From the NCBI GenBank assembly GCA_937873155.1, contig CALMVZ010000013.1:310001-374000 (forward strand): DNA of 64,000 nt, written 5' to 3'. Under the pieces are notes generated by a model. The model made no database searches. It was not told the DNA's origin and was given only the letters and a program-made list of their open reading frames with translations. The stretch's first letter is position 1. Each line of letters begins with the position of its first letter. Source of the stretch: an uncultured Bacteroidota bacterium (GTDB lineage Bacteria > Bacteroidota > Bacteroidia > B-17B0 > Aurantibacillaceae). A program made the translations under genes and the position numbers. Below are positions 4,637 to 29,307 of the stretch, one piece after another.

Positions 4637-5255
4637 AGATGGTATGATGACTGATAATGTAGATGCCGTTATGAAAATGTCATCCAAGATCGGGTTCAGG
4701 TTATTAATTGACCTTGCTACAATATTCGTACTTGTGAGGTATATTTATTTTCCGATCTACCGTCACCGCGAATTCTTTTTCATGTTCGTGATCTTTAATC
4801 TCATTATTTTCCTGGTCTCATTTCTTTTGAATAAAGTAGACTTGTCAATGGGGGCAGCATTTGGTTTATTCGCCGTCTTTAGTATGTTACGGTACAGGAC
4901 TGATAACATATCTATAAAAGACATGACCTACCTTTTCTTAACTATCGCGATCGGATTGGTTTGCGCCGTTACAAAAATAAAAGGCGCTCCTGATAATTTC
5001 GAATATGTTTTTCTGATCGGTGTAAATGCCGTAATATTATTGATCACCTATGTCCTGGAAAGCAGGATGTTTTCGAAACGGGAGATGATCAAGACGATTG
5101 TTTATGAAAATATTGATCTGATACAATCTAATAAAAATGAGGATCTCTTAGCGGATATCCGATTACGTACCGGGATCAACGTTCACAGAGTGTCCGTTCA
5201 AAAAATAAATTTTTTAAAGGATTCAGCAGAGATAAAAATATATTACTATGATTAA
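4614..5255 (+). CDS. DUF4956 membrane protein
   Basis: A 213-residue inner-membrane protein with about four hydrophobic segments (near 28-46, 53-72, 103-121, 130-147) and a soluble C-terminal region of about 60 residues. The block AFGLFAVFSMLRYRTD (84-99) with IKDMTYLF is diagnostic of DUF4956. To my knowledge this family often sits next to VTC-domain genes, as here where the reading frames overlap. A role as membrane anchor or export channel for the product of the VTC enzyme is inference. The DUF2490 gene starts 8 bases before its end. Confidence 0.85.
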   Translation: MTLLQIVEDGMMTDNVDAVMKMSSKIGFRLLIDLATIFVLVRYIYFPIYRHREFFFMFVIFNLIIFLVSFLLNKVDLSMGAAFGLFAVFSMLRYRTDNISIKDMTYLFLTIAIGLVCAVTKIKGAPDNFEYVFLIGVNAVILLITYVLESRMFSKREMIKTIVYENIDLIQSNKNEDLLADIRLRTGINVHRVSVQKINFLKDSAEIKIYYYD

Positions 5256-14673: not shown

Positions 14674-15417
14674 TTATTGGTCTTTCTTATTGTTTTTTTT
14701 TGTTGTGCTTTCTTTTTTTACTTCCGGTTTTTTCGGGGTTTCAGGTTTTTTCTCTTCTGGTGTTTTAGCGATCGGGTCCTGTTTAGCAGGAGTGGCTAAA
14801 CCGGGGCCTGTTATCTCATCAAAATAATAAGCATCAGAAGCAGAAGAGTTAGGATTGAACAGAAGAGTGATCTGGTTTATATCACTGGTAGATGTTTTAC
14901 TCCCTTGTGGTATCTGTGAGAATTTAAATTCCAGTTCTTCCCAGGCATTGGTCTTGGTTGTATAACATTGGTATTGACTATTAGTTCCTGCCGGATAATC
15001 ATTGTTTCCGTTCTTATCACCTAACAAAATTTCAACGAGTGTGCCAACAGGTGCATTCGTGTATAACTTCATTTTTAATTTTGGCGGGATCCCTAAATAA
15101 GTGGCGTATTCACTAACGTCAGCCATCTTACCGGGTAATTCCATTTTTATATTATCGAATTTTTTTCCGGCATTACGTATGTATAGAGCACATTTTTCGC
15201 TGCTGTTCACATTATCAACTCTTGGGTTTTTCGCTAACGTATCAAGTACTCCTGTCCGCTCTGTATAACGGATATATTTCGATCCCTCAAAATTATCATA
15301 GGTGATCTTCTGCCCGAATATAAGCCCTGCTTGTAAAACAAGGAGCTGGCTGAACAGAATGATCTTTATATTTGTTGGTCTTATTCCTGATGAATGATCG
15401 AAAGTATTTGATTTCAT
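14674..15417 (-). CDS. Exported carbohydrate-binding-like protein with Lys/Pro-rich tail
   Basis: A 247-residue protein. A hydrophobic segment (about 19-36) serves as signal peptide. Residues 37-205 form a jelly-roll (YDNFEGSKYIRY, LKMKLYTNAPVGTLVEILLGDKNGNNDYPAGT, ITLLFNPN, YYFDEITGPG) like carbohydrate-binding modules attached to secreted glucanases. The last 40 residues are a low-complexity K/P/E tail, which could contact anionic wall polymers. It is the first gene of the leftward GH15/TPR/barrel/GH26 operon and has a promoter of the ACCGAAT class upstream. Confidence 0.7.
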   Translation of the reverse strand: MKSNTFDHSSGIRPTNIKIILFSQLLVLQAGLIFGQKITYDNFEGSKYIRYTERTGVLDTLAKNPRVDNVNSSEKCALYIRNAGKKFDNIKMELPGKMADVSEYATYLGIPPKLKMKLYTNAPVGTLVEILLGDKNGNNDYPAGTNSQYQCYTTKTNAWEELEFKFSQIPQGSKTSTSDINQITLLFNPNSSASDAYYFDEITGPGLATPAKQDPIAKTPEEKKPETPKKPEVKKESTTKKNNKKDQ

Positions 15418-15450: not shown

Positions 15451-15495
15451 GCAAGATAAAAGCTATGGTAAAAGGCCTTTGGCATTATTCGGTAA
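15451..15495 (-). promoter_or_regulatory. ACCGAAT-class promoter of the GH15/GH26 operon
   Basis: On the coding strand TTACCGAATA (core starting at 15493) is followed 35 nt later by TATCTTGC (15458-15451), about 35 bases before the ATG at 15417. No TTTG lies at the usual -33 distance. Confidence 0.6.
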
Positions 15496-15616
15496 TACAG
15501 TCCTTTGGTTAGCCAAAACACTTATCACCATAGCTATTTTCAAATTAATGATGCTTGTTGCAAAAATCCATTACTTTTTATTGGAGATGGTACAAGTAAC
15601 TTATATTAAGATCATA

Positions 15617-16219
15617 TTACTTTGCAAGTTTTTTTGTGGAACCTGCATATTCCCCATAGCCATTTTCCATTCCTGCTTTACTGGCTTTAATGCCGTAGTA
15701 TCGTGTTGTGAAATCAACCAATGTATTATCTGAAGCGGCATATTGGCCATAGAATTCCGACATACCGGGAGAGGAAGCTTTGATCTCATTATAACGCTTG
15801 ATGAATTCGGTCAGTGTTTTTTTAGATCCGGCATAGTCACCCCAATATTTTGAAAGGTCAGCATAAACATCTTTTATTTCGTAGTATCTTTTAATGAAAG
15901 TTTCCATTTCATGGTCTGAAGCCGCATAATTATCATGCGCGTTCTTTAAAGCAGGGTATGAGGCTTTGATAGCATAATACCTTTCCATGAATTTTGTTTT
16001 GGCATTCGACGAAGCCGCAAATGCGCCATGAAGATTGGTAAGTGAGGGATAGCTTTCTTTCAGGTTATAATAACGTTCCATGAAAACTTCTTCCTTAACA
16101 TTAGTTTTAGGAGCAGTTTCTTTTTTGTCAGCAAGCGCTGTAGTTTGCGCATTTAAACCTGTTGAGATTACCGATGAGCAGAATAATGCTAAAGCGGATA
16201 CGAGTGTTAATTTTTTCAT
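15617..16219 (-). CDS. Secreted protein of five exact-length 31-residue repeats
   Basis: A 200-residue protein with a signal peptide (1-25, LNAQ), a 20-residue linker, and then five back-to-back repeats of exactly 31 residues (46-76, 77-107, 108-138, 139-169, 170-200). The repeat consensus is FxxRYYxIKxSYPxLxxxxGxYAAS plus a variable end; the last repeat finishes at the C-terminus. Each unit probably forms two helices. I do not recognise the family. The gene has its own ACCGAAA-class promoter, and the FAD/Rieske gene lies upstream on the same strand. Confidence 0.8.
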   Translation of the reverse strand: MKKLTLVSALALFCSSVISTGLNAQTTALADKKETAPKTNVKEEVFMERYYNLKESYPSLTNLHGAFAASSNAKTKFMERYYAIKASYPALKNAHDNYAASDHEMETFIKRYYEIKDVYADLSKYWGDYAGSKKTLTEFIKRYNEIKASSPGMSEFYGQYAASDNTLVDFTTRYYGIKASKAGMENGYGEYAGSTKKLAK

Positions 16220-16244
16220 GATAATTTAGTTTTTTGTTTTTTTA

Positions 16245-16288
16245 TAAAATTAAGATGAGTAGTATGTAACAGTTCGTATTTTCGGTAA
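16245..16288 (-). promoter_or_regulatory. ACCGAA-class promoter of the repeat-protein gene
   Basis: ATTACCGAAAA (core at 16286) lies 34 nt before TAATTTTA (16252-16245) on the coding strand, about 26 bases from the ATG at 16219. AAAATACG also occurs twice around the motif, 19 nt apart. Confidence 0.6.
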
Positions 16289-16334
16289 TTCCCCGTATTT
16301 TGTCGCTAATGCCTATGAATAGTGGTTGGACGGC

Positions 16335-17930
16335 TTAGTGGTGTATCTCATCTTGGATATCAATTTTCTTCAGATCTCCTGTCGCAGGACCATTTATCAA
16401 TTTCCCGTCAGTTGTAAACCGTGAGCCATGCATTGGACAGTCAAATGATTTTTCATCTGCGTTCCATTGCAGGATGCCCCCGAGGTGAGGGCAAACCCCG
16501 GTGCACGCGTGTACATTACCATTCACGTCTTTATACACTGCGATCTTTTTCATGTTTACATTTATTACTGCACCTTCACCGGCTTTCAGGTCATTAGTTT
16601 CTTTTACATCTCCGGGAGTTACCCAATCAATGTATTGTGCGGTCATATTTCCTGCTTCATGCAAATAAGCACCTGTCGTTTTCATGGTAATTCGTGAAGG
16701 GTCATAAATATCTTCCCAGGAATTTTTCTTACCGGTGATCAGATCTGTTATAAGAATTCCACCAATGGTACAATGTGTCATTCCGTTCCCTGAATCACCT
16801 GTGATGATATAAATATTATCATCTCCGGGATTCCTTCCAATGAAAGCTAATGAATCAATAGGTTCCATTACCTGGCCCGACCACTTGTAGTCTGCAATTC
16901 CGAAATCTGTAAATCTTTTTCTTGTCCAATCAATTAATTTGTCATATCGGTCCTCTTCAGGAATGTTTTCCGTATCAGCTTGCCCGACTTTGTGATCTTC
17001 TCCTCCTGAAATAAGCAGATCATTTGTTTCATCAAACGGTACTACTCTTACATAGTGGTAAGGTTTGGATATCCACTTTGAATCCTGGTCACCTGTATCC
17101 CACCACAGTGAATGATGTAGTTTTCCTTTTGGGATCTTACCCGCTATCACATAAGTTCGGTAAGGCCATTGTTTAGTATGCATAGCCACCCAATCATTCA
17201 CGGGTGTATTGGTAGCAACAACAATATGTTTCGCTTTTATTTCATAACCATTAGCTTTTGCCCCGGTTTTCGAAATATGTTCTGCTCTTGTTTCTGTATA
17301 AATTTCACCTCCCATATTGATGATCGCTTCTGCAAGGCCGGCAAGATATTTCATGATATGGAATTGCGCTTGCCCGCAGAATTTAATGGCCCATTTTCCT
17401 TGTTCGGATTCAACGCCGGGGATGGATTCAAGCATTTCAATTCTTAAACCGGCTTCTTTAGCTGAAGCATATTCTTTTTCGAGGGATTCTTTTTTATCAG
17501 TAGAATGGAGGAATAAATAGCCATCAATACGTTTGAAATTGCAATCTATATTTTCATATTTTACGGTATTCTCTACCCATTGAATTGCCGACATATGACT
17601 GCTGGCGATACGTCGCGTTTTTTCTTTTCCATACAAATTTTCAAGCGTGTAGTAACGATCATCCAATGCACAGGTCAGATGCGCAGTGGTGCGACCGGTT
17701 TCACCGCTTCCTAAATAACCATCTTCAACCAAAACAACTTTTCGTCCCGCTTTTAATAGGCAATACGCAGTTGTTAGCCCTGCAAGGCCGCCGCCGATCA
17801 CAAGCACATCTGTGTCATGGTTATTCTGAAGTTTTTTAAATGATAATGGCCGGACACCGGTTGTCCAGTATGGTTTGTTTTCGCCTGAAGTTATATTGCT
17901 GTTAATTGGTTCTAAGATTGGTGAGTCCAT
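16335..17930 (-). CDS. FAD-dependent oxidoreductase with C-terminal Rieske domain
   Basis: A 531-residue fusion. The N-terminal 420 residues are a DAO-type flavoenzyme: VLVIGGGLAGL (42-52) binds FAD, GRTTAHLTCALDDRYY follows, and GDSGNGMTHC near the end of the domain closes the FAD site. Residues 440-531 are a Rieske [2Fe-2S] domain with C480-x-H482 and C498-xx-H501 as ligands. This fusion is a known flavoprotein class of unknown substrate, thought to pass electrons from the cluster to FAD. No signal peptide. It is apparently monocistronic. A downstream segment of about 110 bases separates it from the repeat-protein gene. Confidence 0.88.
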   Translation of the reverse strand: MDSPILEPINSNITSGENKPYWTTGVRPLSFKKLQNNHDTDVLVIGGGLAGLTTAYCLLKAGRKVVLVEDGYLGSGETGRTTAHLTCALDDRYYTLENLYGKEKTRRIASSHMSAIQWVENTVKYENIDCNFKRIDGYLFLHSTDKKESLEKEYASAKEAGLRIEMLESIPGVESEQGKWAIKFCGQAQFHIMKYLAGLAEAIINMGGEIYTETRAEHISKTGAKANGYEIKAKHIVVATNTPVNDWVAMHTKQWPYRTYVIAGKIPKGKLHHSLWWDTGDQDSKWISKPYHYVRVVPFDETNDLLISGGEDHKVGQADTENIPEEDRYDKLIDWTRKRFTDFGIADYKWSGQVMEPIDSLAFIGRNPGDDNIYIITGDSGNGMTHCTIGGILITDLITGKKNSWEDIYDPSRITMKTTGAYLHEAGNMTAQYIDWVTPGDVKETNDLKAGEGAVINVNMKKIAVYKDVNGNVHACTGVCPHLGGILQWNADEKSFDCPMHGSRFTTDGKLINGPATGDLKKIDIQDEIHH

Positions 17931-18030
17931 GCTATAATGTTTTCTTATAAAGTTATTGCAACAAGTAGGAATTGAGTTACATCTTTCATGTTAATCAGTT
18001 GCATCATTAACATGGAGTGAAAGAAAATAA

Positions 18031-18067
18031 AAAACCGCCAGGCATAACGCATGACGGCTTCTTTTTT
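18031..18067 (-). terminator. Rho-independent terminator of the 18080-18523 gene
   Basis: An imperfect hairpin (CCGCCAGGC against GCATGACGG, two mismatches, loop ATAAC) lies just after the stop, and is followed on the transcribed (minus) strand by a T-run. Confidence 0.5.
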
Positions 18068-18079
18068 AAATTTTGTTTC

Positions 18080-18523
18080 TTACTTCGAGCTGGTCTTATC
18101 CGCGTTGGTCTTTAAACCCCAGATCTCAACTCCTGCTTTTTCATCTTTTCGGTTAGGAAGTGTTTTGTAAACGAATTCAATCTTTTTAAGATCACGTTCA
18201 CCGCCATCAATATCAATTTGACGGCTTTCTCCATTCATTTTAAGAGGCATTGCAACATCTACATGTTGTTTTCCACCATCTTCAAAATAAATTTCAAGGT
18301 TCACTAAGTCGACAGGAGCATCAGTCACCTTGATCTTGATAGATGCGAATTTATCAGCGCCCATAATTACCACTTCATCTTTTTCTTTTTTAAAGCTTAC
18401 TGTGGTTTCGGCGATCTTATGCCAACCGCTCTTATCAGTTACAATAACTGCCGGCTTTTGTGCGCTTGCAGTTTTACATAATCCTGTAGTAGCAAGGAAA
18501 ATGATCAAAAGTACTTTTTTCAT
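18080..18523 (-). CDS. Small exported protein, DUF2541-like
   Basis: A 147-residue protein with a signal peptide (1-21, ASAQ) and a compact beta-rich mature part: WHKIAETTVSF, VVIMGADKFASIKIKV, VNLEIYFEDG, SRQIDIDGGERDLKKIEFVYKT, GVEIWGLK. The final strand pair resembles DUF2541, a small exported family of unknown function; I give this with moderate certainty. It carries its own terminator and an ACCGAT-class promoter with a perfect -7 box, so it is a single-gene unit. Confidence 0.7.
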   Translation of the reverse strand: MKKVLLIIFLATTGLCKTASAQKPAVIVTDKSGWHKIAETTVSFKKEKDEVVIMGADKFASIKIKVTDAPVDLVNLEIYFEDGGKQHVDVAMPLKMNGESRQIDIDGGERDLKKIEFVYKTLPNRKDEKAGVEIWGLKTNADKTSSK

Positions 18524-18555
18524 TTGTCTAAAGTTTAAGTTAATATTAATTTAGG

Positions 18556-18599
18556 CAAATGTAGAATGTGTGAAGGGCGGCAACTGAAAAAATCGGTAA
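18556..18599 (-). promoter_or_regulatory. ACCGA-class promoter of the DUF2541-like gene
   Basis: TTTACCGATTT (core at 18597) is followed 34 nt later by a consensus -7 box TACATTTG (18563-18556), about 32 bases before the ATG at 18523. Confidence 0.65.
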
Positions 18600-18663
18600 A
18601 CCCGATAATTGATAAGGATAAAACCGAAATTCTTTGGACGGAAATGGAAATTGATGATGCGAA

Positions 18664-19065
18664 TTAATTTTTTTCCAGGATGGAAAGTTCTGATCCTAAT
18701 TCTTCCATAGCTTTTTTACAGACCACTTCCAGTTCTGAAAATAATTTTTTGATCTCTTTTGGCTGTTCTTGTTTGGCTGCAAGATCCTGGATCTTTCTTG
18801 CCATGTTCTCATATTTGGAATCCATGCCAAGCATTGGAAAAGAAGGGAGCATAGAATGAGCCGCGTTTTTTACTGCGCGCCAGTTATTTTTTTCAATACC
18901 AAGGCTCAGATCGCCAAGTAACTTTGGAGTTTCTTCGAGATATGCTTTCAGCATTACTATCATCCCTTCCCGGTTACCCAAAGTCAGTTCTTTCAAATAA
19001 CTGAAATTGACGTAAGCCGGATTCTTATCTAAGGTGGCCTTATTCTCTTTTGGATCGTTCTTCAT
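18664..19065 (-). CDS. Hpt-domain phosphotransfer protein
   Basis: A 133-residue soluble helical protein. The motif AAHSMLPSFPMLGM (69-82) with H70 is the phosphorylated-histidine helix of Hpt domains, which relay phosphate between histidine kinases and response regulators. The rest is helical, with an acidic N-terminus. There is no kinase gene in the window; the nearest potential partners are the two LytTR response regulators at 19200 and 21200. Promoter upstream is of the ACCGAAT class. Confidence 0.83.
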   Translation of the reverse strand: MKNDPKENKATLDKNPAYVNFSYLKELTLGNREGMIVMLKAYLEETPKLLGDLSLGIEKNNWRAVKNAAHSMLPSFPMLGMDSKYENMARKIQDLAAKQEQPKEIKKLFSELEVVCKKAMEELGSELSILEKN

Positions 19066-19117
19066 AATTGTCCTGATTCCCGAATGGTTAAAAATTCAAC
19101 CGGATTGGAAATTATAA

Positions 19118-19162
19118 CTAAGATAGAGAAATAATACAGTTTCAAACTAATTTATTCGGTTA
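19118..19162 (-). promoter_or_regulatory. ACCGAAT-class promoter of the Hpt gene
   Basis: TTAACCGAATAAA (core at 19160) is followed 35 nt later by TATCTTAG (19125-19118), about 52 bases before the ATG at 19065. Confidence 0.55.
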
Positions 19163-19199
19163 ATTTGGAGAAAAGATAGCCGTAGATCTGAAATAAGAG

Positions 19200-19922
19200 C
19201 TAAATAAGATTGATCTTCCGCAGAAGTTCTTTCTTATATTGTTCCCCGATCGGTAACGGATGTTTGCCTATATAAGCAGTTCCCTCTTCAATATTATCAA
19301 TATGTGAGAGCGATGTCAGATAAGAGCGGTGTAAACGGTAGAATTTATCCTGTGGTAATTTTTCTTCCATTCCTTTTAAAGTGATATGTACAGTTAACCG
19401 GGTATCGTTAGTGAAGATATTCACATAATCACCTAAAGCCTGAACATAAATGATGTCTTTTATCTTTACCTTGGTAAGTAAGGAATTGGAACGTACAAAA
19501 ATGTAATCTTTTTCTTTCGTGTTCGTTTCTACTTTTTGATCTTTATTCGCGTGTAATTCTTTTGCGCGGTCAACTGCTGCCATGAAACGTGATAAGCTTA
19601 CAGGTTTGATGATGTAATCAGCTACATTCAACTCAAAAGCTTCAACAGCGTAATCTTTTTTAGAAGTGATGAGGATCACGATAGGCCGTTTCTCCAGATT
19701 CTTTATTAATTCGATACCTGTCATGCCCGGCATTTCAACATCGAGGAAAACTAAGTCAATATCTTCTTTCTTCAGATAATTGAAAGCTTCAACAGGATTT
19801 TCGCATTCACCTTTTAATTCCAGGAATTCAACTTGGTCTACCAGTTGTTTTACCATTGCTCTTGAGAGCTTATTATCATCAACTATTATACATTTCATGT
19901 TGTGTGGTTTTGAGGTTTCCAT
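19200..19922 (-). CDS. LytTR-family response regulator
   Basis: A 240-residue regulator. Receiver domain (about 9-130): acidic pair in IIVDDNKLS, phospho-acceptor D61 in LVFLDVEMPGMTG, conserved ITSKKDYAVEAF. LytTR DNA-binding domain (about 135-240): YIFVRSNSLLTKVKIKDIIYVQALGDYVNIFT and FYRLHRSYLTSLSHI. Such proteins bind direct repeats in promoters. Starts at 19922 (METSKPHN) or 19898 (MKCIIVDD) are possible. It is a close paralogue of the gene at 21200-21913; no sensor kinase lies nearby. Confidence 0.92.
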   Translation of the reverse strand: METSKPHNMKCIIVDDNKLSRAMVKQLVDQVEFLELKGECENPVEAFNYLKKEDIDLVFLDVEMPGMTGIELIKNLEKRPIVILITSKKDYAVEAFELNVADYIIKPVSLSRFMAAVDRAKELHANKDQKVETNTKEKDYIFVRSNSLLTKVKIKDIIYVQALGDYVNIFTNDTRLTVHITLKGMEEKLPQDKFYRLHRSYLTSLSHIDNIEEGTAYIGKHPLPIGEQYKKELLRKINLI

Positions 19923-19938
19923 TATTACTTTTATGCAA

Positions 19939-19982
19939 CTAAACTATAAAGTTCATTTAGTGTTTATTGAGACTTTCGTTGA
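19939..19982 (-). promoter_or_regulatory. Candidate promoter of the first LytTR gene (AACGAA variant)
   Basis: AACGAAAG (core at 19980) is followed 34 nt later by TAGTTTAG (19946-19939). Same geometry as the ACCGAA class but weaker at both boxes. If real, the leader would favour the start codon at 19898. Confidence 0.35.
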
Positions 19983-20111
19983 ATAGGGCTTTTAAATAGC
20001 CCGGAACCGACCGGAAATAGGTGGTTTTTCCCAATTTATGTGAAACATTTGGATCCCGGGATCAGGGACAACACGAAGAGCGAATTTTTCTTGGCTTATA
20101 AAAAAGGGTAC

Positions 20112-20155
20112 TCACCGAATTCGACACCGATGAGCGGGATTTTGATATAAATTGC
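20112..20155 (+). promoter_or_regulatory. ACCGAAT-class promoter of the nucleotidyltransferase gene
   Basis: TCACCGAATTC (core at 20114) is followed 34 nt later by TAAATTGC (20148-20155), about 28 bases before the ATG at 20184. It is the one core member on the plus strand. Confidence 0.5.
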
Positions 20156-20183
20156 CATGGTTTAACAATCAAAAAAAATTATC

Positions 20184-21203
20184 ATGAAAATAATAGTACC
20201 TATGGCAGGTATGGGCAAGCGTATGAGGCCGCATACTTTAACAACACCAAAACCACTTCTTCCTATAGCAGGTAAATCAATTGTTCAGCGATTGGTGGAA
20301 GACATCATCAGTGTTTCAGGTGAAAAAGTAGATGAAATTGCATTTGTGATAAATCACCTTGGAAAGGAAACGGAGGAAAAGATCAAAAAGATAGCGATCG
20401 ATCTGAAAGCGAAAGCAAGTATCTTCTACCAGGAAGAGGCTTTAGGCACTGCGCACGCTATTCTATGTGCAAAGGAAGCTTTAAAAGGAAAAGTAATTGT
20501 AGCTTTCGCTGATACATTATTTAAGGCTGATTTTAAGCTGGACGATTCACGTGAAGGAATTATCTGGGTACAAAAAGTAGAAGATCCTAAACCTTTTGGT
20601 GTAGTAAAACTGAACGAGAAGAATATTATTACCGATTTTGTTGAAAAACCTGAACACTTTGTTTCTGATCTTGCCATTATTGGTATCTATTATTTTAAGG
20701 ATGGAGTAAATCTTAGAAAGGAATTGGAGTATCTGATCGAGAATAATATTAAAGATAAAGGCGAATTCCAATTGACCAGCGCTCTTGAGAATATGAAATC
20801 AAAAGGCGTTAAGTTCACTCCGGGACAAGTTACCGAGTGGCTCGATTGCGGGAATAAAGATTCAACGGTTCATACCAATCAGCGCATCCTTGAATTCAAC
20901 AGGGGAGAGGATCTTGTTTCGAAAACACATGTCTCACAAAATTCTGTGATCATTGAACCTTGTTATATAGGCGAGAATGTAAAGATCATCAATTCAGTTG
21001 TTGGTCCTTATGTTTCCATCGGACGCGATTCTGTTATTGAAGATTCTATAATAAAAAATACGATCGTTCAAAATAATGCAAAGATAACTGCGGCTAATAT
21101 CAGGAATTCAATGTTCGGGAATAGTATCGATTATAAAGATCATTACTCAGAACTTAGCATGGGTGATTTCAGTATACAACACAACGGAAGAAGCGGGGAT
21201 TAG
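20184..21203 (+). CDS. Sugar-phosphate nucleotidyltransferase
   Basis: A 339-residue enzyme. The N-terminal GT-A-like domain has VPMAGMGKRMRPHT (5-18) for nucleotide binding and PKPLLPIAGK (23-32) with the catalytic lysine; GTAHAI, AFADTLF and EKPEHF follow. The C-terminal part (about 240-325) shows hexapeptide-like left-handed beta-helix turns (SVIIEPCYIGENVKI, SVVGPYVSIG). It activates a sugar-1-phosphate to an NDP-sugar for glycan synthesis; glucose-1-phosphate with UTP or dTTP is likely but not provable here. The stop overlaps that of the convergent LytTR gene by 4 bases. Confidence 0.88.
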   Translation: MKIIVPMAGMGKRMRPHTLTTPKPLLPIAGKSIVQRLVEDIISVSGEKVDEIAFVINHLGKETEEKIKKIAIDLKAKASIFYQEEALGTAHAILCAKEALKGKVIVAFADTLFKADFKLDDSREGIIWVQKVEDPKPFGVVKLNEKNIITDFVEKPEHFVSDLAIIGIYYFKDGVNLRKELEYLIENNIKDKGEFQLTSALENMKSKGVKFTPGQVTEWLDCGNKDSTVHTNQRILEFNRGEDLVSKTHVSQNSVIIEPCYIGENVKIINSVVGPYVSIGRDSVIEDSIIKNTIVQNNAKITAANIRNSMFGNSIDYKDHYSELSMGDFSIQHNGRSGD

Positions 21204-21913
21204 AGCAGGTTCAGTTTTTTGAGTAATTCTTTTTTGTATTGTTCACCGATGGGAATGGAATGTTGTCCTATCCGGACTTCATTCTCTTCTATCTTTTCGA
21301 TATGATCGATCGCAACAATATAAGAACGGTGCAGCCTGAAGAATCTGGAAGGATCCAGTTTTTCTTCCATGCTTTTAAGTGTACTGTGTACAAGGTTATG
21401 TTTTGTACCTGAGAATATTTTCACGTAATCACCTAATGCCTGTACATAAAGTATATCCTGCAGTTTTATTTTAGTTAAAGCTGAATTAGAACGAACGAAA
21501 ATGTGATCCGAGTCTCCTCCTTCTTGAGCCCCTATTTTTTTATCCCTGATATCATTTATTTCTTTAGCTCTTTCAACCGCAACCATAAAACGGGAAAGGG
21601 TTACGGGTTTGACAATGTAATCAGCCACATTTAATTCAAAGGCTTCAACAGCGTACTCTTTTTTAGAACTCACTAAAATAATAATTGGCCGGTGTTTTAA
21701 ATTCTTAATGAATTCAAGCCCTGTCATCTCAGGCATTTCTATATCAAGAAAAATAAGATCTATAGGTTCTGTTTGAAGGTAGTTGAATGCTTCTACCGGG
21801 TTAGAACATTCTTTTTTAAGTGTAAGGAAATTAACCTGGCCGATCAGGATCGTCAGGGCTTTCCGGGCTACAAGGCTATCGTCAACTACAATACAATTCA
21901 TTGCTGCCATCAA
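21200..21913 (-). CDS. LytTR-family response regulator (paralogue)
   Basis: A 237-residue protein of the same architecture as the gene at 19200: receiver (about 5-125) with VVDDS, phospho-acceptor D in LIFLDIEMPEMTG, VSSKKEYAVEAF; LytTR domain (about 135-237) with HIFVRSNSALTKIKLQDILYVQALGDYVKIF and FFRLHRSYIVAIDHI. The long runs shared with the first copy point to a local duplication, with the nucleotidyltransferase gene between the copies. Starts at 21913 or 21901 (MNCIVVDD) fit. No kinase partner in the window. Confidence 0.92.
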   Translation of the reverse strand: MMAAMNCIVVDDSLVARKALTILIGQVNFLTLKKECSNPVEAFNYLQTEPIDLIFLDIEMPEMTGLEFIKNLKHRPIIILVSSKKEYAVEAFELNVADYIVKPVTLSRFMVAVERAKEINDIRDKKIGAQEGGDSDHIFVRSNSALTKIKLQDILYVQALGDYVKIFSGTKHNLVHSTLKSMEEKLDPSRFFRLHRSYIVAIDHIEKIEENEVRIGQHSIPIGEQYKKELLKKLNLL

Positions 21914-22000
21914 AATTAAGCATAAAGTTCAATAAATGGATTTGGAAAGGGGTTTTTAATCTCAAAATGGTAGAATTATCCTAAAAATTCTATAAATGAG

Positions 22001-22028
22001 AAAACGCATGGCTTCGGCCATGCGTTTT
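22001..22028 (-). terminator. Rho-independent terminator after the YtxH gene
   Basis: A perfect 12-base stem AAAACGCATGGC/GCCATGCGTTTT with a TTCG tetraloop. It lies downstream of the leftward lipoprotein/YtxH pair and upstream of the second LytTR gene. Confidence 0.85.
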
Positions 22029-22088
22029 TCTTAAATCGGAGCCTTTTTCAAATTAAGATATAAGAAAAAAGTTTTCAGTTTTTTTCTT

Positions 22089-22370
22089 TTAACCCATTGA
22101 AGTCTTGACATCCTTTTTAAACTCGTCGACTTTGGCTTTGCCATTTTGAAGCATGCCTTTCGATTCTGATTTTGCATCTTCGAATTTGTCGGTAAGATTG
22201 CTAACCAATTCATCGTATTTTTCTTTTAAAGCGTCTGTGTAATCTTCGCTTCTTTTAGCAATTTTTTTCCTTGTGTTAGAACCTTTATCCGGTGCTAACA
22301 GAACCCCTAGTAATGCACCGGCGGCTGCGCCTGCCAATACACCCAATAAAACTTTACCTGTGCTGCTCAT
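22089..22370 (-). CDS. YtxH-family small membrane protein
   Basis: A 93-residue protein with a Gly/Ala-rich membrane segment (about 6-27, LLGVLAGAAAGALLGVLLAP), then DKGSNTRKKIAKRSEDY and a charged amphipathic helix. This is the YtxH pattern, a general-stress-linked membrane protein group. It lies 57 bases downstream of the lipoprotein gene on the same strand and before a strong terminator, so the two probably form one transcript. Confidence 0.85.
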   Translation of the reverse strand: MSSTGKVLLGVLAGAAAGALLGVLLAPDKGSNTRKKIAKRSEDYTDALKEKYDELVSNLTDKFEDAKSESKGMLQNGKAKVDEFKKDVKTSMG

Positions 22371-22427
22371 GTTTTTGTTGTTTTTAGTTTATTAATTGAT
22401 TTATTTATGATTTGAATTGTATTTCTT

Positions 22428-23294
22428 TTAGCTTTTTACGATCACCAAATATTTTGATGCGCTCCAGAATTTTTCCGGATCGGTGATCACAATATTCTTC
22501 ACAATATTCTTTCCTTCTTTATCCATGGTGTAAGAACCGGCAGGATGAACGGTTATGATCTTCACATGATCGCCATTCACCGGAATAGTTCCCGTTTGCG
22601 TATAGTCGATCTTTGTGAATTTATTTGTATCAAAGTTCTCACTTAAAGCAGGAGTTTTCCCTATCCCGAGTAATCCGCCCTTTTTGTCGATCAGTCTTGC
22701 TTCCTGCAATTCTTTCGATTTCCCAACCACATAATAAGCGGTGTGTAGAGCGGTAACGTTTTCTTTGATCGTACCTTCTTTTGCGAGATTTTGTTGGGTT
22801 AAAGTATCAACCGACATTTTTAACTGTGCAACTTCTGAATCAAGTTGATTCAAGCGTTCATTCAGAGCAGTTAATTCGATATTTTTCTGTTCTAACTGGT
22901 TACTTAAGGTCAGGATCGTTTCATCCAACTGTTTGTTCTTGCGGCTCGATTTACTAAGTTTCTTTTTTAATGATGAGATTTCTTTTACATTCTCGCTCAT
23001 TAATGTATTGATAGCCTGTATTTCGTTGATGATCCTGTCTTTTTGAGCACGTTTCAGATCTTTCCCTTTTTCGGTAGTGGCGTAAATGATCTGTTGTTTA
23101 ACGGCAACAGAATCCAAATTACGTTCGATCTCATTAAAAGAAGCGAGTAATTCATTTATTGATTCATCGCGTTCTGTGGTGATCCTGATCAGCGAATCTT
23201 TTTCCGGATCAGGTGTGTTTGTTGCAACTTCTGTGTCTCTCGTATTACAAGCAGTAATTAATGCAAGACAGAAGATGGAAATAATGTTCTTCAT
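22428..23294 (-). CDS. Coiled-coil lipoprotein (Cbp1-type adhesin-like family)
   Basis: A 288-residue protein with a lipoprotein signal (ALITAC, C16). Residues about 30-185 are a long coiled coil (MSENVKEISSLKKKLSK, LEQKNIELTALNERLNQL). The C-terminal 100 residues form a globular domain: TAYYVVGKSKELQEARLIDKKGG, DYTQTGTIPVNG, and VITDPEKFWSASKYLVIV. I recall this layout from Bacteroidota lipoproteins annotated as Cbp1-family collagen-binding-like; binding is not shown by sequence. It is expressed from an ACCGAAT-class promoter and precedes the YtxH gene. Confidence 0.75.
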   Translation of the reverse strand: MKNIISIFCLALITACNTRDTEVATNTPDPEKDSLIRITTERDESINELLASFNEIERNLDSVAVKQQIIYATTEKGKDLKRAQKDRIINEIQAINTLMSENVKEISSLKKKLSKSSRKNKQLDETILTLSNQLEQKNIELTALNERLNQLDSEVAQLKMSVDTLTQQNLAKEGTIKENVTALHTAYYVVGKSKELQEARLIDKKGGLLGIGKTPALSENFDTNKFTKIDYTQTGTIPVNGDHVKIITVHPAGSYTMDKEGKNIVKNIVITDPEKFWSASKYLVIVKS

Positions 23295-23327
23295 AATTAT
23301 TTTAATTGTTTTTGTAATTGAATACGG

Positions 23328-23371
23328 TAAAAGTACTCGTGGATATAGCGACGTCTTTTTAAATTCGGTAA
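23328..23371 (-). promoter_or_regulatory. ACCGAAT-class promoter of the lipoprotein/YtxH pair
   Basis: TTTACCGAATTT (core at 23369) is followed 34 nt later by TACTTTTA (23335-23328), 33 bases before the ATG at 23294. A second TTTACCGTAT lies 41 nt downstream of the first and overlaps the -7 region. Confidence 0.65.
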
Positions 23372-23458
23372 AGAATTGTTTTTAATGGTTTAAACGCCCT
23401 TTGCTTTGTTTAAGAGTATGTATGCACTACTGACACAATAATCGCTTCCTCTGTGAAA

Positions 23459-23695
23459 TTATTTCAATGGCCCGGATACTTCTGGTAATTTATACTCGGG
23501 CTTATATTTTTTTATCATTTGGATTAGCGAATCATAATATTCCTTTAAGGTCTTCCTGTTTATATCGGGATCTTTCTCATCAGGATTGGTTTGTGTCATT
23601 TCAGGAATGAATTGTACTATCTCAGGATATCTCTCATTAATAGCCTGTGTAATGTTCATGATCCTTTGTGTAAGTGTTTTTTCTTCTGAGTCCAT
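23459..23695 (-). CDS. Small conserved-looking soluble protein
   Basis: A 78-residue soluble protein without signal peptide: an N-terminal helix (RIMNITQAINERYPEIVQFI), an acidic loop with NPDEKDPDINRKTLKEYYDSL, and a tail KPEYKLPEVSGPLK. I do not recognise a family. The composition, its own promoter of the ACCGAAT class and the fit of its length between promoter and next gene support a real gene. Confidence 0.65.
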   Translation of the reverse strand: MDSEEKTLTQRIMNITQAINERYPEIVQFIPEMTQTNPDEKDPDINRKTLKEYYDSLIQMIKKYKPEYKLPEVSGPLK

Positions 23696-23712
23696 AACTA
23701 TTGATTTTAATA

Positions 23713-23757
23713 TAAAAGTACATTATAGTTAAAGTATAGTGGATTGAAATTCGGTAA
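23713..23757 (-). promoter_or_regulatory. ACCGAAT-class promoter of the 78-residue gene
   Basis: ATTACCGAATTT (core at 23755) is followed 35 nt later by TACTTTTA (23720-23713), 17 bases before the ATG at 23695. The sequence around both boxes closely matches that of the lipoprotein promoter. Confidence 0.65.
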
Positions 23758-23906
23758 TGTTAAGTAATCGATAGCTTAAACGCGGAATCCGGAATGCGGG
23801 TATATCAACTGTTTTTTACCAATGAAAAATCATATGTTGTAAGAAAATCACCTTGTTAAAATTAGCAAAAGAACTTCTGTATGTACTAACGACTTAATAG
23901 TTGATG

Positions 23907-23950
23907 CAGGCGAATAAACCAATGAAACCGCAGCTGGTGATGTAATTTTG
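23907..23950 (+). promoter_or_regulatory. Candidate promoter of the porin-like gene (GGCGAATAA variant)
   Basis: GGCGAATAAA (at 23909) stands 34 nt before a consensus -7 box TAATTTTG (23943-23950). It keeps CGAATAAA of the class motif but not the first two bases. The ATG at 23979 is 28 bases downstream. Confidence 0.45.
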
Positions 23951-23978
23951 AATCATATAAAAATAAAAATCTGAAATT

Positions 23979-24785
23979 ATGAACAAGAAAATCACAACGG
24001 GAGCAGTCGCAATTTTAATTGCGTTCTTCTCTATGCCTCTGTCAGCTCAGGAAGTTGATACGGTGAAAGTAAAGGAAACACAGACGGTGATTCGTGATAC
24101 AGTTACAGTACATGACACAGTAGTAAAAGAAGTAGTAAGAGAAACCCCCAAGCAGGAGCCGGCAAAACCGGAACGTCCTCCGTTGCGCCATGGTGAGTTC
24201 GGTTTACGTTACATGCCAACATTCTCATCAATGTCGTTCAGGACCTATAACGGAGAAGTTGTTCAGGGTGATGTAAGCATGAGCCATGGCTTTGGTTTAA
24301 TGTTAGGGGCTAATTTCTCGAAAAATGTGGGGATACAGGCAGAAGCCAGTTATTTAGACATTTCCCAGAAATACAAAGACCAGGGTTTAAGCCGCCAGGT
24401 AAATGTAAGTTATCTGAACATCCCGATCATGTTATCATTGAATACTGATAAGACGAGGATGGTGAACTGGAACTTTGTTGCAGGTCCTCAGTTTGGTATT
24501 AATTTAGGTGCCAGTGTTCAAACTACAGGCGATGAAAATTCAGGAACATTAAGAGCTGTAGTAGGGGCGAAAGGAACAGATGTTGGTTTAGCTTTTGGTA
24601 CAGGGCTTGAATTTGCACTTAACAAAGCACACACAATGCGTGCTGACGTAGGTTACCGTGGGTATTATGGTTTGATCGATGCAAGTGCTGATCAAACTTC
24701 TAATAATCCGGATACTTATAATGTGTTGGTGAGAGCTTCCCGCTTTTATCACGCAGCTTATTTAGGATTGACCTGGTGCTTCTAA
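23979..24785 (+). CDS. Outer-membrane beta-barrel (porin-family, PorT-like)
   Basis: A 268-residue protein with a signal peptide (1-24, LSAQE), a Val/Thr repeat linker (TVIRDTVTVHDTVVKEV, about 35-52), a proline-rich stretch and a barrel (about 70-268) with GEFGLRYMPTF, GFGLMLGANFSKNVGIQAEASYL, MVNWNFVAGPQFGINLG and a final HAAYLGLTWCF strand. It fits the OMP_b-brl_2/PorT-like group of small barrels. Isolated gene with its own promoter and terminator. Confidence 0.8.
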   Translation: MNKKITTGAVAILIAFFSMPLSAQEVDTVKVKETQTVIRDTVTVHDTVVKEVVRETPKQEPAKPERPPLRHGEFGLRYMPTFSSMSFRTYNGEVVQGDVSMSHGFGLMLGANFSKNVGIQAEASYLDISQKYKDQGLSRQVNVSYLNIPIMLSLNTDKTRMVNWNFVAGPQFGINLGASVQTTGDENSGTLRAVVGAKGTDVGLAFGTGLEFALNKAHTMRADVGYRGYYGLIDASADQTSNNPDTYNVLVRASRFYHAAYLGLTWCF

Positions 24786-24802
24786 AAGCAAAAGTATTAT
24801 AT

Positions 24803-24833
24803 AAACCATTCGCCACAAGCGGATGGTTTTTTT
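24803..24833 (+). terminator. Rho-independent terminator of the porin-like gene
   Basis: Hairpin AAACCATTCGC/GCGGATGGTTT with a short loop, 17 bases after the stop, followed by seven T. Confidence 0.85.
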
Positions 24834-24969
24834 ATGTTTATATTTTAACATTTCAGAGATTTTTAGCTTTAAATTGGCCGTGATTAACACAATTTTTCCC
24901 TGTCTAAACTAATAAACCCCTAAATAAGCCGTTTTATGAAATACTTTTATTGTAAATAATGCAAGGAAT

Positions 24970-25167
24970 ATGAAGAAAAGCATAAAGTGCTATAGGAAGG
25001 GGTCTCCTGCTAAGCCGGGAAAAAGGTCACCCCAAAAACCCACCCCATGGTGGCATGATGAGACCAATAATCATGATTCATATAGTAATTCAACCGTAGT
25101 TGTTGAAGATCCTGACAGATATAAATCGTCGGTCGTGAATGATCCGCCGCTACGCAAGTGTTTCTAG
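24970..25167 (+). CDS. Possible small basic protein
   Basis: A 65-residue frame, basic at the N-terminus (KKSIKCYRKGSPAKPGKRSPQK) and hydrophilic throughout. No family or homologue recognised. A TACTTTTA box lies 31 bases upstream of the ATG (24939-24946). It ends 16 bases before the stop of the convergent hydrolase. It may be real or chance. Confidence 0.35.
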   Translation: MKKSIKCYRKGSPAKPGKRSPQKPTPWWHDETNNHDSYSNSTVVVEDPDRYKSSVVNDPPLRKCF

Positions 25168-25183
25168 ATTTGTTTGAATAAGA

Positions 25184-26038
25184 TCATTTCGAATTTTTCT
25201 TCTTTTTATCGAATTCTTCTGAATGCGACATTAAAAAATCAAGAAGATGCTCGTTGAATACATCCGGTTGTTCCAGGTTGGATAAATGCGCTGCTCTTTC
25301 AATGATCTTTAACTCTGAATTTTTGATATGACGGTGTAAGAATTCGGATTGTTGTACCGGTGTTATCTTATCATTCCTTCCGCAAATAATTAATGTCGGC
25401 ACTTTAATTGAACTGAGTGCTGAACACGTTTCCCTGCGTTTCGATAATGCTTTTAACCCTTCGGTTATTACTTGTTTTGTGTTCGAAAGAATAGTAGCTT
25501 CTATTTTCTTTACCACTTCCCTTTTTAATACGAATGAATCCCTGCGGAATGCATTTTCAATGAATTCTTCAGCAAAATCATTAATGCCTTCTGCTTCTAT
25601 CTGGTAGATCGTTTTGTAACGGTGCTCTTTCATTTTTTTCGAATCTGCAATGCAGTTTGTGTCACACAGGATCAATCCTGCAAACCGTTCAGGGTATCTG
25701 CTGATCGTATTCAAAGCAATATATCCTCCCATCGATAAGCCGCATAGAATTGCTTTGTCAATTTCCAATACATCCATTAATTGAATAACATCATCTGAGA
25801 ACAGATCGATATTTAATTTTTTATGGCCTGCAGAAGATTTTCCGAAGCTGCGGAGGTCGACCGATATCAATCGGTATGCCAATTTTAAATAATTTACCTG
25901 GTTCTTCCACATCGATTTATCGAAAGGAAAACCATGAAGAAAAATAATCGGCACTTTTCCTTCACCAACATCATCATAACTCATAGTGATGTTATTGACC
26001 TTAATTGTTTTGCTGAATCCTTTGGTCGATCTTTCCAT
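25184..26038 (-). CDS. Alpha/beta hydrolase
   Basis: A 284-residue soluble hydrolase: oxyanion-hole HGFPFD (35-40), nucleophile elbow GLSMGG with S102, the acid in LIICGRNDKITP and the histidine in RAAHLSNLEQP. This is the 3-oxoadipate enol-lactonase/esterase type of fold; substrate not predictable. No signal peptide. A bidirectional hairpin separates it from the acidic small protein upstream. Confidence 0.85.
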   Translation of the reverse strand: MERSTKGFSKTIKVNNITMSYDDVGEGKVPIIFLHGFPFDKSMWKNQVNYLKLAYRLISVDLRSFGKSSAGHKKLNIDLFSDDVIQLMDVLEIDKAILCGLSMGGYIALNTISRYPERFAGLILCDTNCIADSKKMKEHRYKTIYQIEAEGINDFAEEFIENAFRRDSFVLKREVVKKIEATILSNTKQVITEGLKALSKRRETCSALSSIKVPTLIICGRNDKITPVQQSEFLHRHIKNSELKIIERAAHLSNLEQPDVFNEHLLDFLMSHSEEFDKKKKNSK

Positions 26039-26058
26039 AACAATTGATAGTTTACATT

Positions 26059-26091
26059 AAAAAGGGCGAGGTAAAACACCTCACCCTTTTT
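26059..26091 (-). terminator. Rho-independent terminator of the acidic small protein gene
   Basis: Stem AAAAAGGGCGAGGT/ACCTCACCCTTTTT (one mismatch), loop AAAAC. On the minus strand a T-run follows, so it ends transcription of the gene at 26127-26432 just before the hydrolase start. Confidence 0.8.
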
Positions 26092-26126
26092 ATTCGTGTT
26101 GTTAATTCAGGAAACAGAACAAAGTT

Positions 26127-26432
26127 CTATTTGCCTTTATTGTTGGTGTTGTTTTGGTCAATTTTTCGTGTTTCCCCGTTCTGTTCGGTATCAACATCCT
26201 GACCACTTTCATTATTTTTTACATCATCAACCGGTGTATGGTAATCGTGTTCATGATCGGTATCATCGTATTCTTTATCTTTCGAATCTACCTTTTCTGT
26301 ATCACCATCATCTACAACGGCTGTTGAATTACGCGACATGTCGGCATCATCACCTTTGAGGCCCGTGTCTTTCGTTTTTGGATCAACTGTAGTATCCTTA
26401 CCACGTTGATCATTTTTTTCCGTCTCTTTCAT
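26127..26432 (-). CDS. Small acidic disordered protein
   Basis: A 101-residue protein made almost entirely of D, E, K, N, T and G, with no hydrophobic core (for example VDDGDTEKVDSKDKEYDDTD). It is predicted to be intrinsically disordered and cytoplasmic. Such hydrophilin-like proteins are often stress-induced, which is inference here. A good terminator follows it, and a related 59-residue acidic gene lies upstream on the same strand. Confidence 0.65.
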   Translation of the reverse strand: MKETEKNDQRGKDTTVDPKTKDTGLKGDDADMSRNSTAVVDDGDTEKVDSKDKEYDDTDHEHDYHTPVDDVKNNESGQDVDTEQNGETRKIDQNNTNNKGK

Positions 26433-26603
26433 AACTTTTAAACTTTAATTGAACGTATGGAATTGTGAGTTCAAAAAGATTCAAATGAACCAAAAAGTGT
26501 CTTCATCTCTTCTTTTTGTTCTCCTGAACTTCCATGTAAAGATCTTTCTCATAAGTTTATGAAGTTTTGAATATTTATTTGTGACTGTAAACATTTATAA
26601 TAA

Positions 26604-26783
26604 TTAAAATAATTTGCTAAAATCAACGTATCCTTCGTTATCTCTTTTATCTTCTTCCTGAGATCCTGTTTCCGTTTCGGTCTCTTCAATTTCTCTTTCG
26701 TCTTTTTTTACACCTGTATCCGGCTTCTTAGTTGCAGGCTCCATCTCTGTATCCGGTGTTTGTTTTGGCTTATTCGGTTCCAT
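26604..26783 (-). CDS. 59-residue acidic disordered protein
   Basis: A short frame, ATG at 26783 and TAA at 26604-26606. The product begins MEPNKPKQTPDTEMEPATK, is rich in E, T, K and P, and ends in an order-prone tail YVDFSKLF. Its composition resembles that of the 101-residue protein at 26127, but there is no clear sequence repeat between them. Support for it being a gene is the consensus -7 box TACCTTTG with an ACCGAAT motif upstream, 47 bases before the ATG. Confidence 0.6.
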   Translation of the reverse strand: MEPNKPKQTPDTEMEPATKKPDTGVKKDEREIEETETETGSQEEDKRDNEGYVDFSKLF

Positions 26784-26829
26784 GATCTTTAATTTTTTAA
26801 TCTGTTCGTATTCTTTTTAATTATACTAT

Positions 26830-26873
26830 CAAAGGTACTGCCAAATAAGAGGGAAGATCTTAGTATTCGGTAA
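26830..26873 (-). promoter_or_regulatory. ACCGAAT-class promoter of the 59-residue gene
   Basis: TTTACCGAATA (core at 26871) is followed 34 nt later by a consensus -7 box TACCTTTG (26837-26830). Confidence 0.65.
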
Positions 26874-26939
26874 AGACAGAATATGAATGGCTAAAAGAGA
26901 ACCGTCAATGAAGAAATGAGAAAAAGTGTTAAGGAAATA

Positions 26940-29206: not shown

Positions 29207-29263
29207 AAACCCGATTTTTTCCTGCCGACTTTTTCTCTGTTCTAGACCAATTTTCCCTCCTTT

Positions 29264-29307
29264 TAAACGAACAGTCCTTCCATTGGTTTTTTGTCGTTTT
29301 AACTTTA
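29264..29307 (+). promoter_or_regulatory. Candidate promoter of the T9SS propeller gene (AACGAA variant)
   Basis: AACGAACA (at 29266) stands 34 nt before TAACTTTA (29300-29307), 14 bases before the ATG at 29322. Same geometry as the ACCGAA class, weaker motif. Confidence 0.35.

Follow-up and report, generated by a model that had tools for sequence, protein, structure and literature searches.

The question raised by this locus is what reads a short motif shared by several of its promoters. The initial annotation of the window, meaning the whole 64,000-nucleotide stretch analysed, had reported ACCGAAT-type motifs in eight promoters, each followed by a TAnnTT-type box, and had proposed a regulon under one activator, to which it gave no name. 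All eight motifs were found at the positions given, each with its box; the box begins 34 nt from the motif in five promoters (16286, 18597, 20114, 23369 and 26871) and 35 nt from it in three (15493, 19160 and 23755), and the distances from box to start codon, recomputed from the site-gene distances, span 17–52 nt. The spacing was then counted with no trained model in the window and a further 788 kb of the same genome (~0.85 Mb, 852 kb), using the patterns TTACCGA[AT], TAACCGAA and TCACCGAA. Of 211 matches, 22 were intergenic and no more than 200 nt from a start, and 13 of these 22 have TAnnTT at 34 or 35 nt, as against 15 occurrences over the 38 other offsets between 20 and 59 (binomial 6e-14); the figure for non-promoter matches is 5 of 189. 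This count, which bears out the fixed spacing, is the unbiased test, a separate offset profile having used a model trained at 34/35 and being partly circular.

The motif is real but constitutes only one half of the operator, the upstream half having been overlooked. The full element consists of TTTTGGCTAT, then TTAmCGAAT 21 nt further on, and after another 27/28 nt TAnnTTTG. The upstream half, TTTTGGCTA, is conserved at positions -25 to -17, all 13 seeds having C at -19, and a variant right half, AACGAA, also occurs. The half-site consensus is therefore TTrGCTATn-N12-TTAmCGAAT, two imperfect 9-nt halves placed 21 nt apart. Promoters with the full element number 11 in the window, where the eight sites first noted hold and three more (771 plus, 19980 minus and 29266 plus) had been missed, and 28 in the 852-kb sample. 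AT-rich intergenic DNA combined with a common 8-mer, which is indeed present in coding sequence too, might have produced such an array by chance; five Markov-1 shuffles of the sample, however, gave 0, 0, 1, 0 and 0 full-element sites, 26 of the 28 real sites are intergenic although intergenic DNA makes up 7.7% of the sample, and the element precedes orthologous genes and co-occurs with a LytTR regulator, as described below. Chance thus has a negligible probability and is refuted by the site counts. Across the whole genome there are at least 31 matches at E≤0.0015 among the best 150 first-look candidates scored. The site alignments hold little or no information outside the halves and the box. 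Recent duplication of the sites is thereby excluded, and copies of a mobile repeat were rejected as their origin.

The plus-strand site at 746–812 contains the halves TTCTGGCGA and TTGAACGAAAA and the box TATCTTTA at 34 nt (PWM score 32.1), and precedes 868–1314, a DksA/TraR-type zinc-finger gene whose Pfam match to zf-dskA_traR (E 2.2e-4) lies below the cut-off. This site falls within a doubtful 84-aa reading frame on the opposite strand. At 15451–15518 (minus strand, box TATCTTGC at 35) a site precedes 14674–15417 and the GH15/GH26 cluster extending down to 8282; orthologues identified by BLAST in genomes G033, G034 and G041 also carry it, as do look-alike proteins, judged by eye, in G102 and G137. 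Comparison of orthologous promoters, suggested by the initial annotation as a check, finds the same element in these three genomes with BLAST orthologues. The minus-strand sites at 16245–16311 (box TAATTTTA at 34) and 18556–18622 (box TACATTTG at 34) precede, respectively, a gene for a 200-aa protein (15617–16219) and a DUF2541-like gene (18080–18523, with a Pfam match to DUF2541 under the cut-off).

The next sites surround a REC-LytTR response regulator gene at 19200–19922 (minus strand), whose product matches Pfam Response_reg with 82.7 bits (cut-off 30.2) and LytTR with 67.3 bits (cut-off 22.6). Its own promoter contains the site at 19939–20005 (minus, box TAGTTTAG at 34, PWM score 34.3), which would make the gene autoregulated, and the orthologous promoter has the site in G033, G034, G102 and G098. 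On the divergent side, the plus-strand site at 20089–20155 (box TAAATTGC at 34) precedes a nucleotidyltransferase gene (20184–21203); a site divergent to the LytTR gene is also present in G033, G102 and G098. Directly downstream of the LytTR gene, a position in which sites recur in other genomes, the site at 19118–19185 (minus, box TATCTTAG at 35) precedes a gene for an Hpt-like phosphotransfer protein (18664–19065, minus; Pfam Hpt E 1.9e-4, 22.0 bits against a cut-off of 24.6). That protein matches, at 54%, a 902-aa hybrid kinase of G033 that ends in an Hpt-like stretch, and it is probably both a part of the phosphorelay and a target. A second REC-LytTR regulator, a paralogue with 63% identity (21200–21910, minus, by Pfam), has no site directly before it in the 852-kb site list.

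Further along the minus strand, the site at 23328–23394 (box TACTTTTA at 34) precedes the coiled-coil lipoprotein and YtxH genes (22428–23294 and 22089–22370), and sites precede look-alike lipoproteins, again by eye, in G067 and G070. The site at 23713–23780 (box TACTTTTA at 35) lies before a 78-aa gene (23459–23695), and that at 26830–26896 (box TACCTTTG at 34), before a 59-aa gene (26604–26783), is the top-scoring site in the window (40.5) and the best match of model R1 in the genome (3.0e-8). The lowest PWM score of the eleven (23.1) belongs to the plus-strand site at 29241–29307 (box TAACTTTA at 34), before the gene for a secreted beta-propeller-type protein (29322–30740), whose 59% orthologue in G033 also has a site (L136 11445+).

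An alternative sigma factor that reads ACCGAA as an upstream element would account for the fixed spacing to the -7 box, but we regard it as extremely unlikely: at 34–35 nt the motif stands about one helical turn too far from the box for a -35 element, there is a second half 21 nt further upstream, and the downstream box is the housekeeping one. Over 71 sites its consensus is TAnnTTTG, the Bacteroidota primary-sigma reference at -7 in the cited passages of PMC7366714, which likewise describe the -33 motif of Flavobacterium johnsoniae as not identifiable. It had been claimed that none of the eight promoters has TTTG at -33, and that the activator replaces the -33 contact. In the promoter at 19160 a TTTG begins 21 nt ahead of the box, and this is the single case among 27 regulon sites with TTTG 15–33 nt before the box; in the seven remaining promoters of the eight, the stretch between motif and box holds no TTTG at a distance of 13 nt or more from the box. 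In 91 non-regulon TAnnTTTG promoters, neither TTTG nor TTG is enriched around -33. The lack of a -33 element in regulon promoters is uninformative because the ordinary promoters of this genome show none either, and the replacement reading was rejected for that reason and for the TTTG at 19160.

The two halves fit best with the repeat geometry published for LytTR-type operators. A direct repeat with a period of 21 was the best of 18 periods (14–31; permutation 0.012), although the halves are only weakly alike, with a negative absolute similarity score, and are markedly unequal (GGCTA vs ACCGAA). An inverted arrangement does not beat the null in the site alignment (0.63), and this reading was rejected. 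LytTR half-sites are about 9 nt long. In the cited passages of PMC6193735, LytTR sites are direct repeats mostly 12 bp apart (11–13), lying in Streptococcus mutans 4–11 bp upstream of -35; the imperfect repeats found here are separated by 12 nt. The proximal half stands 27–28 nt from the -7 box, which would put it about 4–5 bp ahead of a -35 if that lay 17 nt from -10, no -33/-35 being visible here.

AlgR of Pseudomonas aeruginosa is a LytTR-type regulator, and AgrA of Staphylococcus aureus has a half-site sequence that differs from that of the element and targets in quorum sensing. In the cited passages of PMC6193735, HdrR/BrsR of S. mutans resemble the present case as LytTR-family proteins with 12-bp-separated direct repeats just upstream of the promoter and positive autoregulation; their genes accompany that of a membrane protein, and they regulate bacteriocins and competence, whereas the protein found here has a receiver domain, the halves are unequal, and the set is a stress-like one of about 30 Bacteroidota promoters. 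According to the cited passages of PMC4227749, AgrA is similar in its LytTR domain and in binding as a dimer to a pair of direct repeats, those nearer the promoter being centred near -60, but acts at -35/-10 promoters with suboptimal spacing. The portion of PMC4064291 cited here gives AlgR, which controls alginate genes, a CCG-containing core (CCGTTCGTC) that differs after CCG, with sites at variable distance and orientation and no fixed pairing.

The distribution of the sites points to the regulator. Among 87 genomes of the family, at least 16 encode the LytTR protein at ≥70% identity; with the best 57 first-look candidates per genome scored, so that site counts are lower bounds, sites (E≤1e-3) occur in 16 of these 16 and in at least 8 of the 71 others, and three or more in 14 of 16 vs 1 of 71. 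The training sites of model R2 came from G000, G033, G034, G027, G022 and G041, the first five of which belong to the family; without the training genomes the counts, from the same candidates, are 12 of 12 vs at least 7 of 70, and for three or more sites 11 of 12 vs 0 of 70. In a class sample (best 12 candidates per genome, again lower bounds), sites occur in at least 7 of 8 LytTR genomes vs at least 11 of 387 others, and two or more in 7 of 8 vs 2 of 387; without G000 and G041 these become 6 of 7 vs at least 10 of 386 and 6 of 7 vs 1 of 386. Absence of the protein is weaker than it appears, the protein scans having scored the best 32 (family) and 7 (class) candidates, and the Fisher tests on co-occurrence ignore kinship among genomes.

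Named loci around LytTR relatives agree with this, although they partly overlap the genome set (identical or nearly identical LytTR rows, for example L183/L222 and L184/L223) and are not fully independent of it. Nineteen of the 80 loci, those with ≥63% identity (345 kb), contain 46 sites, one of which (L226) lacks a good box, and the 61 others (995 kb) contain 3. In a tree of 128 rows, every row with a site in its locus falls within one clade of 46. Of the 38 rows at ≥61% identity, 19 have a site in the LytTR, divergent or next-gene promoter, vs 0 of 61 below 44%; the other 19 close rows have none beside the gene. The flanks, for this count as for the tree, are 1.5 to 10 kb long, and failure to find a site in a short locus carries little weight. 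Since the sites are almost confined to genomes with one LytTR clade, this LytTR protein probably controls the promoters.

Exceptions occur in both directions. At least four sites at E≤1e-4 are present in G041 (97% complete), whose best LytTR match is 39%, outside the clade, and at least five in G022 (78% complete), which has a 42% partial match; seven further family genomes without a close LytTR have one or two sites among the candidates scored. Conversely, none of the candidates scored reaches the site thresholds in G274 (66% LytTR, 98% complete) or G019 (63%), G019 having two weak R1 matches (best 0.004). In addition, 19 of the 31 best own-genome matches lie within C13:279–340 kb, largely one syntenic island, and because much of the regulon is one jointly inherited island, any gene of that island would co-occur with the sites to some extent. 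The island, the site borne by the LytTR gene itself and the presence of sites in G041 and G022 without the clade LytTR would all suit another transcription factor travelling with the island, the LytTR gene being only a target and fellow traveller. We consider this rather unlikely: in G067 and G070 the listed sites are on contigs other than that of the LytTR gene, four families (f1, f6, f21 and f38) show the sites going with the LytTR clade, and the sole other sequence-specific regulator among the targets classified, which cover part of the island genes, is an AraC-type protein that fails on its distribution.

That protein (L036:15855–16496, HTH_18 64 bits) has a site in its own promoter (L036 15790+), and direct repeats with a spacing of about 21 bp, the period of the element, are used by AraC-type dimers as well. 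A near full-length relative (≥57% over ≥157 residues) is nevertheless found in only 5 of the 16 family genomes that encode the LytTR protein, and shorter matches of up to 58% occur in site-free genomes such as G014. There is no match at 1e-10 in G300 (at least nine sites), G357 (at least four) or G041, and none at 1e-15 in G027. The protein was rejected on this distribution, and its binding to the element is very unlikely.

We therefore favour, as highly probable on sequence evidence, the reading that the sites are operators of one LytTR-activated, general-stress-like regulon, with 19200–19922 as the probable activator; the paralogue 21200–21910 may share its sites. The proposal of a shared regulon with activator-type sites gains from the recurrence of the spacing across many promoters, beyond the window and into other families. 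The regulator would be phosphorylated through a relay including Hpt and single-REC proteins, themselves targets, and would bind as a dimer to one face of the DNA, adjoining RNA polymerase with the ordinary sigma factor. Besides its own gene it would then switch on about 30 promoters, whose genes serve stress protection, exopolysaccharide, storage polymers and signalling. The target families suggest the general-stress role. RpoS and SigB regulons, which use an alternative sigma factor, have similar target classes (BON, CsbD, YtxH, DUF892, YceI, DksA-like, glucan storage); here, in contrast, the box is the housekeeping one and selectivity would sit in the upstream operator.

A broader reading, which we hold to be about evenly balanced, is that several Bacteroidia families run general stress and dormancy not with an alternative sigma factor but with one LytTR two-component regulator, which controls its own gene, has a dedicated phosphorelay and acts at a bipartite operator whose distance from the housekeeping -7 box is fixed; the module would move or be lost as a whole, and close relatives would differ accordingly. 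The programme would comprise exopolysaccharide, glucan and cyanophycin-like storage, BON, CsbD, YtxH, YceI and DUF892 proteins and a DksA-like factor. We know of no obvious RpoS or SigB in Bacteroidota, and the regulon suggests how such a phylum might coordinate its genes for general stress, biofilm and storage. An open-access literature search found no earlier description of the element or regulon, nor a described operator or regulon for any Bacteroidota LytTR protein, a domain with 21 matches in this genome and 46 in G019; the 71-site model offers a predicted binding site together with a specific candidate for the regulator and a list of putative targets. Sites and regulator are patchy but linked in their occurrence, which is in effect a natural experiment on the spread or loss of a regulon.

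A search of solved structures with the regulator gave 66 matches, and the 60 listed all have their best-aligned stretch within, or largely within, the receiver domain, which is of no help on DNA contacts. Two papers combine the string TTACCGAAT with Bacteroidetes; in one of them it is part of a PCR primer.

The conserved promoter element in the window is real and is larger than was described. All eight motifs claimed there (at 15493, 16286, 18597, 19160, 20114, 23369, 23755 and 26871), with their boxes and offsets, were reproduced in the window, which corresponds to positions 310001–374000 of contig C13 in the 4.85-Mb, 39-contig genome G000. The proposed fixed spacing between motif and −7 box was evaluated in 40 stretches of G000 plus the window, 852,241 bases in total, which contain 211 copies of TTACCGA[AT], TAACCGAA or TCACCGAA. 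Twenty-two copies are intergenic and have a start no more than 200 nt downstream. A TAnnTT box is found at 34 or 35 nt in 13 of these 22, versus a total of 15 over the other 38 offsets between 20 and 59, and in 5 of the remaining 189 copies; with a binomial chance near 6e-14, the spacing claim stands. The initial annotation was mistaken in stating that none of the eight has a TTTG at −33, since at 19160 a TTTG starts 21 nt before the box.

When the 13 seeds were aligned, positions −25 to −17 also proved conserved; they form a second block, TTTTGGCTA, in which all 13 have a C at −19. An iterated weight matrix found 27 sites in the sample that scored more than 24 in total and had a positive score for the box; the next box-bearing matches scored 18.5 and below. 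With a matrix of 71 sites, 28 sites exceeded the threshold in the same sample, compared with 0, 0, 1, 0 and 0 in five Markov-1 shuffles of it. Intergenic DNA makes up 7.7% of the sample and holds 26 of the 28 sites, and a called start lies 40–160 nt downstream of 24. The right half of the element alternates between ACCGAA and AACGAA, and because of this variation the window sites at 771, 19980 and 29266 had been overlooked; the original motif and its eight places are borne out, while its described extent, which also omitted the block TTTTGGCTA, was too small. The consensus of the 71 sites, from six genomes, is TTTTGGCTATnnAAAAnnCnnTnTTAnCGAATA followed by a spacer and TAnnTTTG; C or A usually stands at the n that precedes CGAA.

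When the two halves were compared column by column, 21 was the best of 18 periods for a direct repeat (0.012 against permuted columns), while none of the inverted arrangements beat its null (0.63). The halves are unequal, so that the repeat is imperfect. Published LytTR sites are characterized in a section of PMC6193735 as direct repeats, mostly 12 bp apart and close upstream of the promoter, and an excerpt of PMC4227749 has AgrA binding as a dimer to two direct repeats. The element resembles the PMC6193735 sites in being a direct repeat but differs in its unequal halves. This kind of operator is already known, whereas the regulon and its unequal half-sites appear to be undescribed in the portions of the open-access literature covered by our search.

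The element is best explained as the predicted operator of a LytTR two-component regulator, probably the REC-LytTR protein at 19200–19922 (minus strand) of the window, which would govern a regulon of stress, exopolysaccharide and storage genes. Each genome scanned for sites was also searched for this protein; the genome-wide site counts are lower bounds. Of 87 genomes of the family, 16 encode a LytTR protein at least 70% identical to it, and every one of these carries sites (E≤1e-3; 1 to 32 each), versus 8 of the other 71; at least three sites occur in 14/16 versus 1/71. With the five genomes that contributed training sites removed, these proportions are 12/12 versus 7/70 and, for at least three sites, 11/12 versus 0/70. 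Across 395 genomes of the class, the LytTR protein was matched at E≤1e-94 in 8, of which 7 carry sites (E≤1e-4), versus 11 of the other 387, two of which (G041 and G264) have more than one. Excluding the training genomes G000 and G041, the values are 6/7 versus 10/386, or 6/7 versus 1/386 for two or more sites. Class genomes with a more distant LytTR protein (1e-60 to 1e-94) have sites in 7 of 32 cases, versus 4 of 355 without one. The Fisher tests applied to these counts take no account of kinship among the genomes. Sites and LytTR occur together in families f1, f6, f21 and f38.

The association was also seen locally, in 80 named loci retrieved with the surroundings of LytTR relatives. The 19 loci at 63% identity or more (345 kb) hold 46 sites, with at least one in 16 of them, and the other 61 (995 kb) hold 3 sites in two loci. 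In a 128-row tree, all rows with a site-bearing locus fall inside one 46-row clade (built with FastTree; local support 95, with some of the internal branchings unresolved). Of 38 rows at 61% identity or more, which count some species twice, 19 have a site before the LytTR gene, before the next gene or in the divergent promoter; none of the 61 rows below 44% has one there. Another REC-LytTR regulator, with 63% identity to the first, is encoded at 21200–21910 of the window; it may share the operator or may have diverged, and its relatives adjoin the first regulator in genomes G033 and G034. G000 has 21 LytTR-domain matches and G019 has 46, so most Bacteroidota LytTR operators are still to be found.

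Several results go against the LytTR assignment. Sites are present in G041 and G022 (five in the latter), and no LytTR protein of the clade was found in these assemblies, which are 97% and 78% complete, respectively. One or two sites also occur in seven further family genomes that lack a close LytTR (two in G074; one each in G004, G075, G077, G079, G080 and G094), and G274 and G019, with LytTR relatives of 66% and 63%, gave no sites at the thresholds used. The co-occurrence argument is also weakened because the genomic island carrying many of the sites is co-inherited, although G067 and G070 have LytTR on a contig other than those of the listed sites. The main rival regulator named is an AraC-type protein; on that reading this protein, likewise encoded in the island, binds the element, but its distribution among genomes is unlike that of the sites.

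The island spans about 280–342 kb of C13, with a gene order common to G033 and partly to G034. When promoters of orthologues were compared, the element was found to be kept before many island genes in G033 and G034 and before two in G041. The same-genus genomes G001–G007 gave no site match at E≤1e-3 except a weak one in G004, so its presence is patchy. About 9 kb inside the island (C13:296646–305482; L036 16646–20000 and L037 1–5482) looks like an insertion, having almost no relatives in the compared stretches of G033 and G034; one receiver-type protein there matches a hybrid kinase, and similar neighbouring proteins lie at 302034–304180. Window positions 3923–5255, also in the island and lying downstream of both the 771 site and a gene with a CotH domain, encode a VTC-domain protein of the polyphosphate-polymerase type and then a DUF4956 protein.

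R1, a sequence-only model built on 26 sites, matched at least 31 places in the whole G000 genome at E≤0.0015. C13 holds 24 of the 31, 19 of them within 279–340 kb, and C3, C10, C11, C12, C25, C26 and C38 hold one each. Six sites outside the training set lie in five matched loci, L074, L081 (two, divergent), L082, L084 and L090; long reading frames follow four of them, and only very short frames are in reach in L084 and L090. Closely spaced repeats at L041:14284–14432 (C12, about 54.3 kb), with TTACCGAT...AATCCCTATGGGATT-like palindromes, match the 8-mer but appear to be a separate repeat family rather than regulon sites.

By Pfam, the signalling and regulatory targets are the REC-LytTR regulator, Hpt, two single receivers, STAS, AraC-type HTH and DksA/TraR-like proteins, alongside BON, YtxH, DUF2541-like and nucleotidyltransferase proteins; the glycan and storage targets are the GH15/GH26 cluster, a starch-synthase-like glycosyltransferase followed by GH57, cellulose-synthase-like glycosyltransferases, a surface glycan-binding-like protein adjoining an acyltransferase, and a cyanophycin-synthetase-like ligase. 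Secreted beta-propeller proteins are targets as well. The Hpt, DUF2541, DksA/TraR and surface glycan-binding matches are under curated cut-offs. Several targets have no Pfam family match. In relatives, the element also lies upstream of CsbD, DUF892, DUF5670, DUF326, YceI and SpoIIAA-like genes. This mix of targets resembles that of general stress regulons. The 981-residue protein at L149:4944–7886, with a high-scoring site upstream, contains GH26- and GH2-like matches in addition to a cellulose-synthase-like glycosyltransferase. The cyanophycin-synthetase-like ligase at L151:10703–13321 has a site upstream, as does its divergent neighbour, a secreted CHU_C protein.
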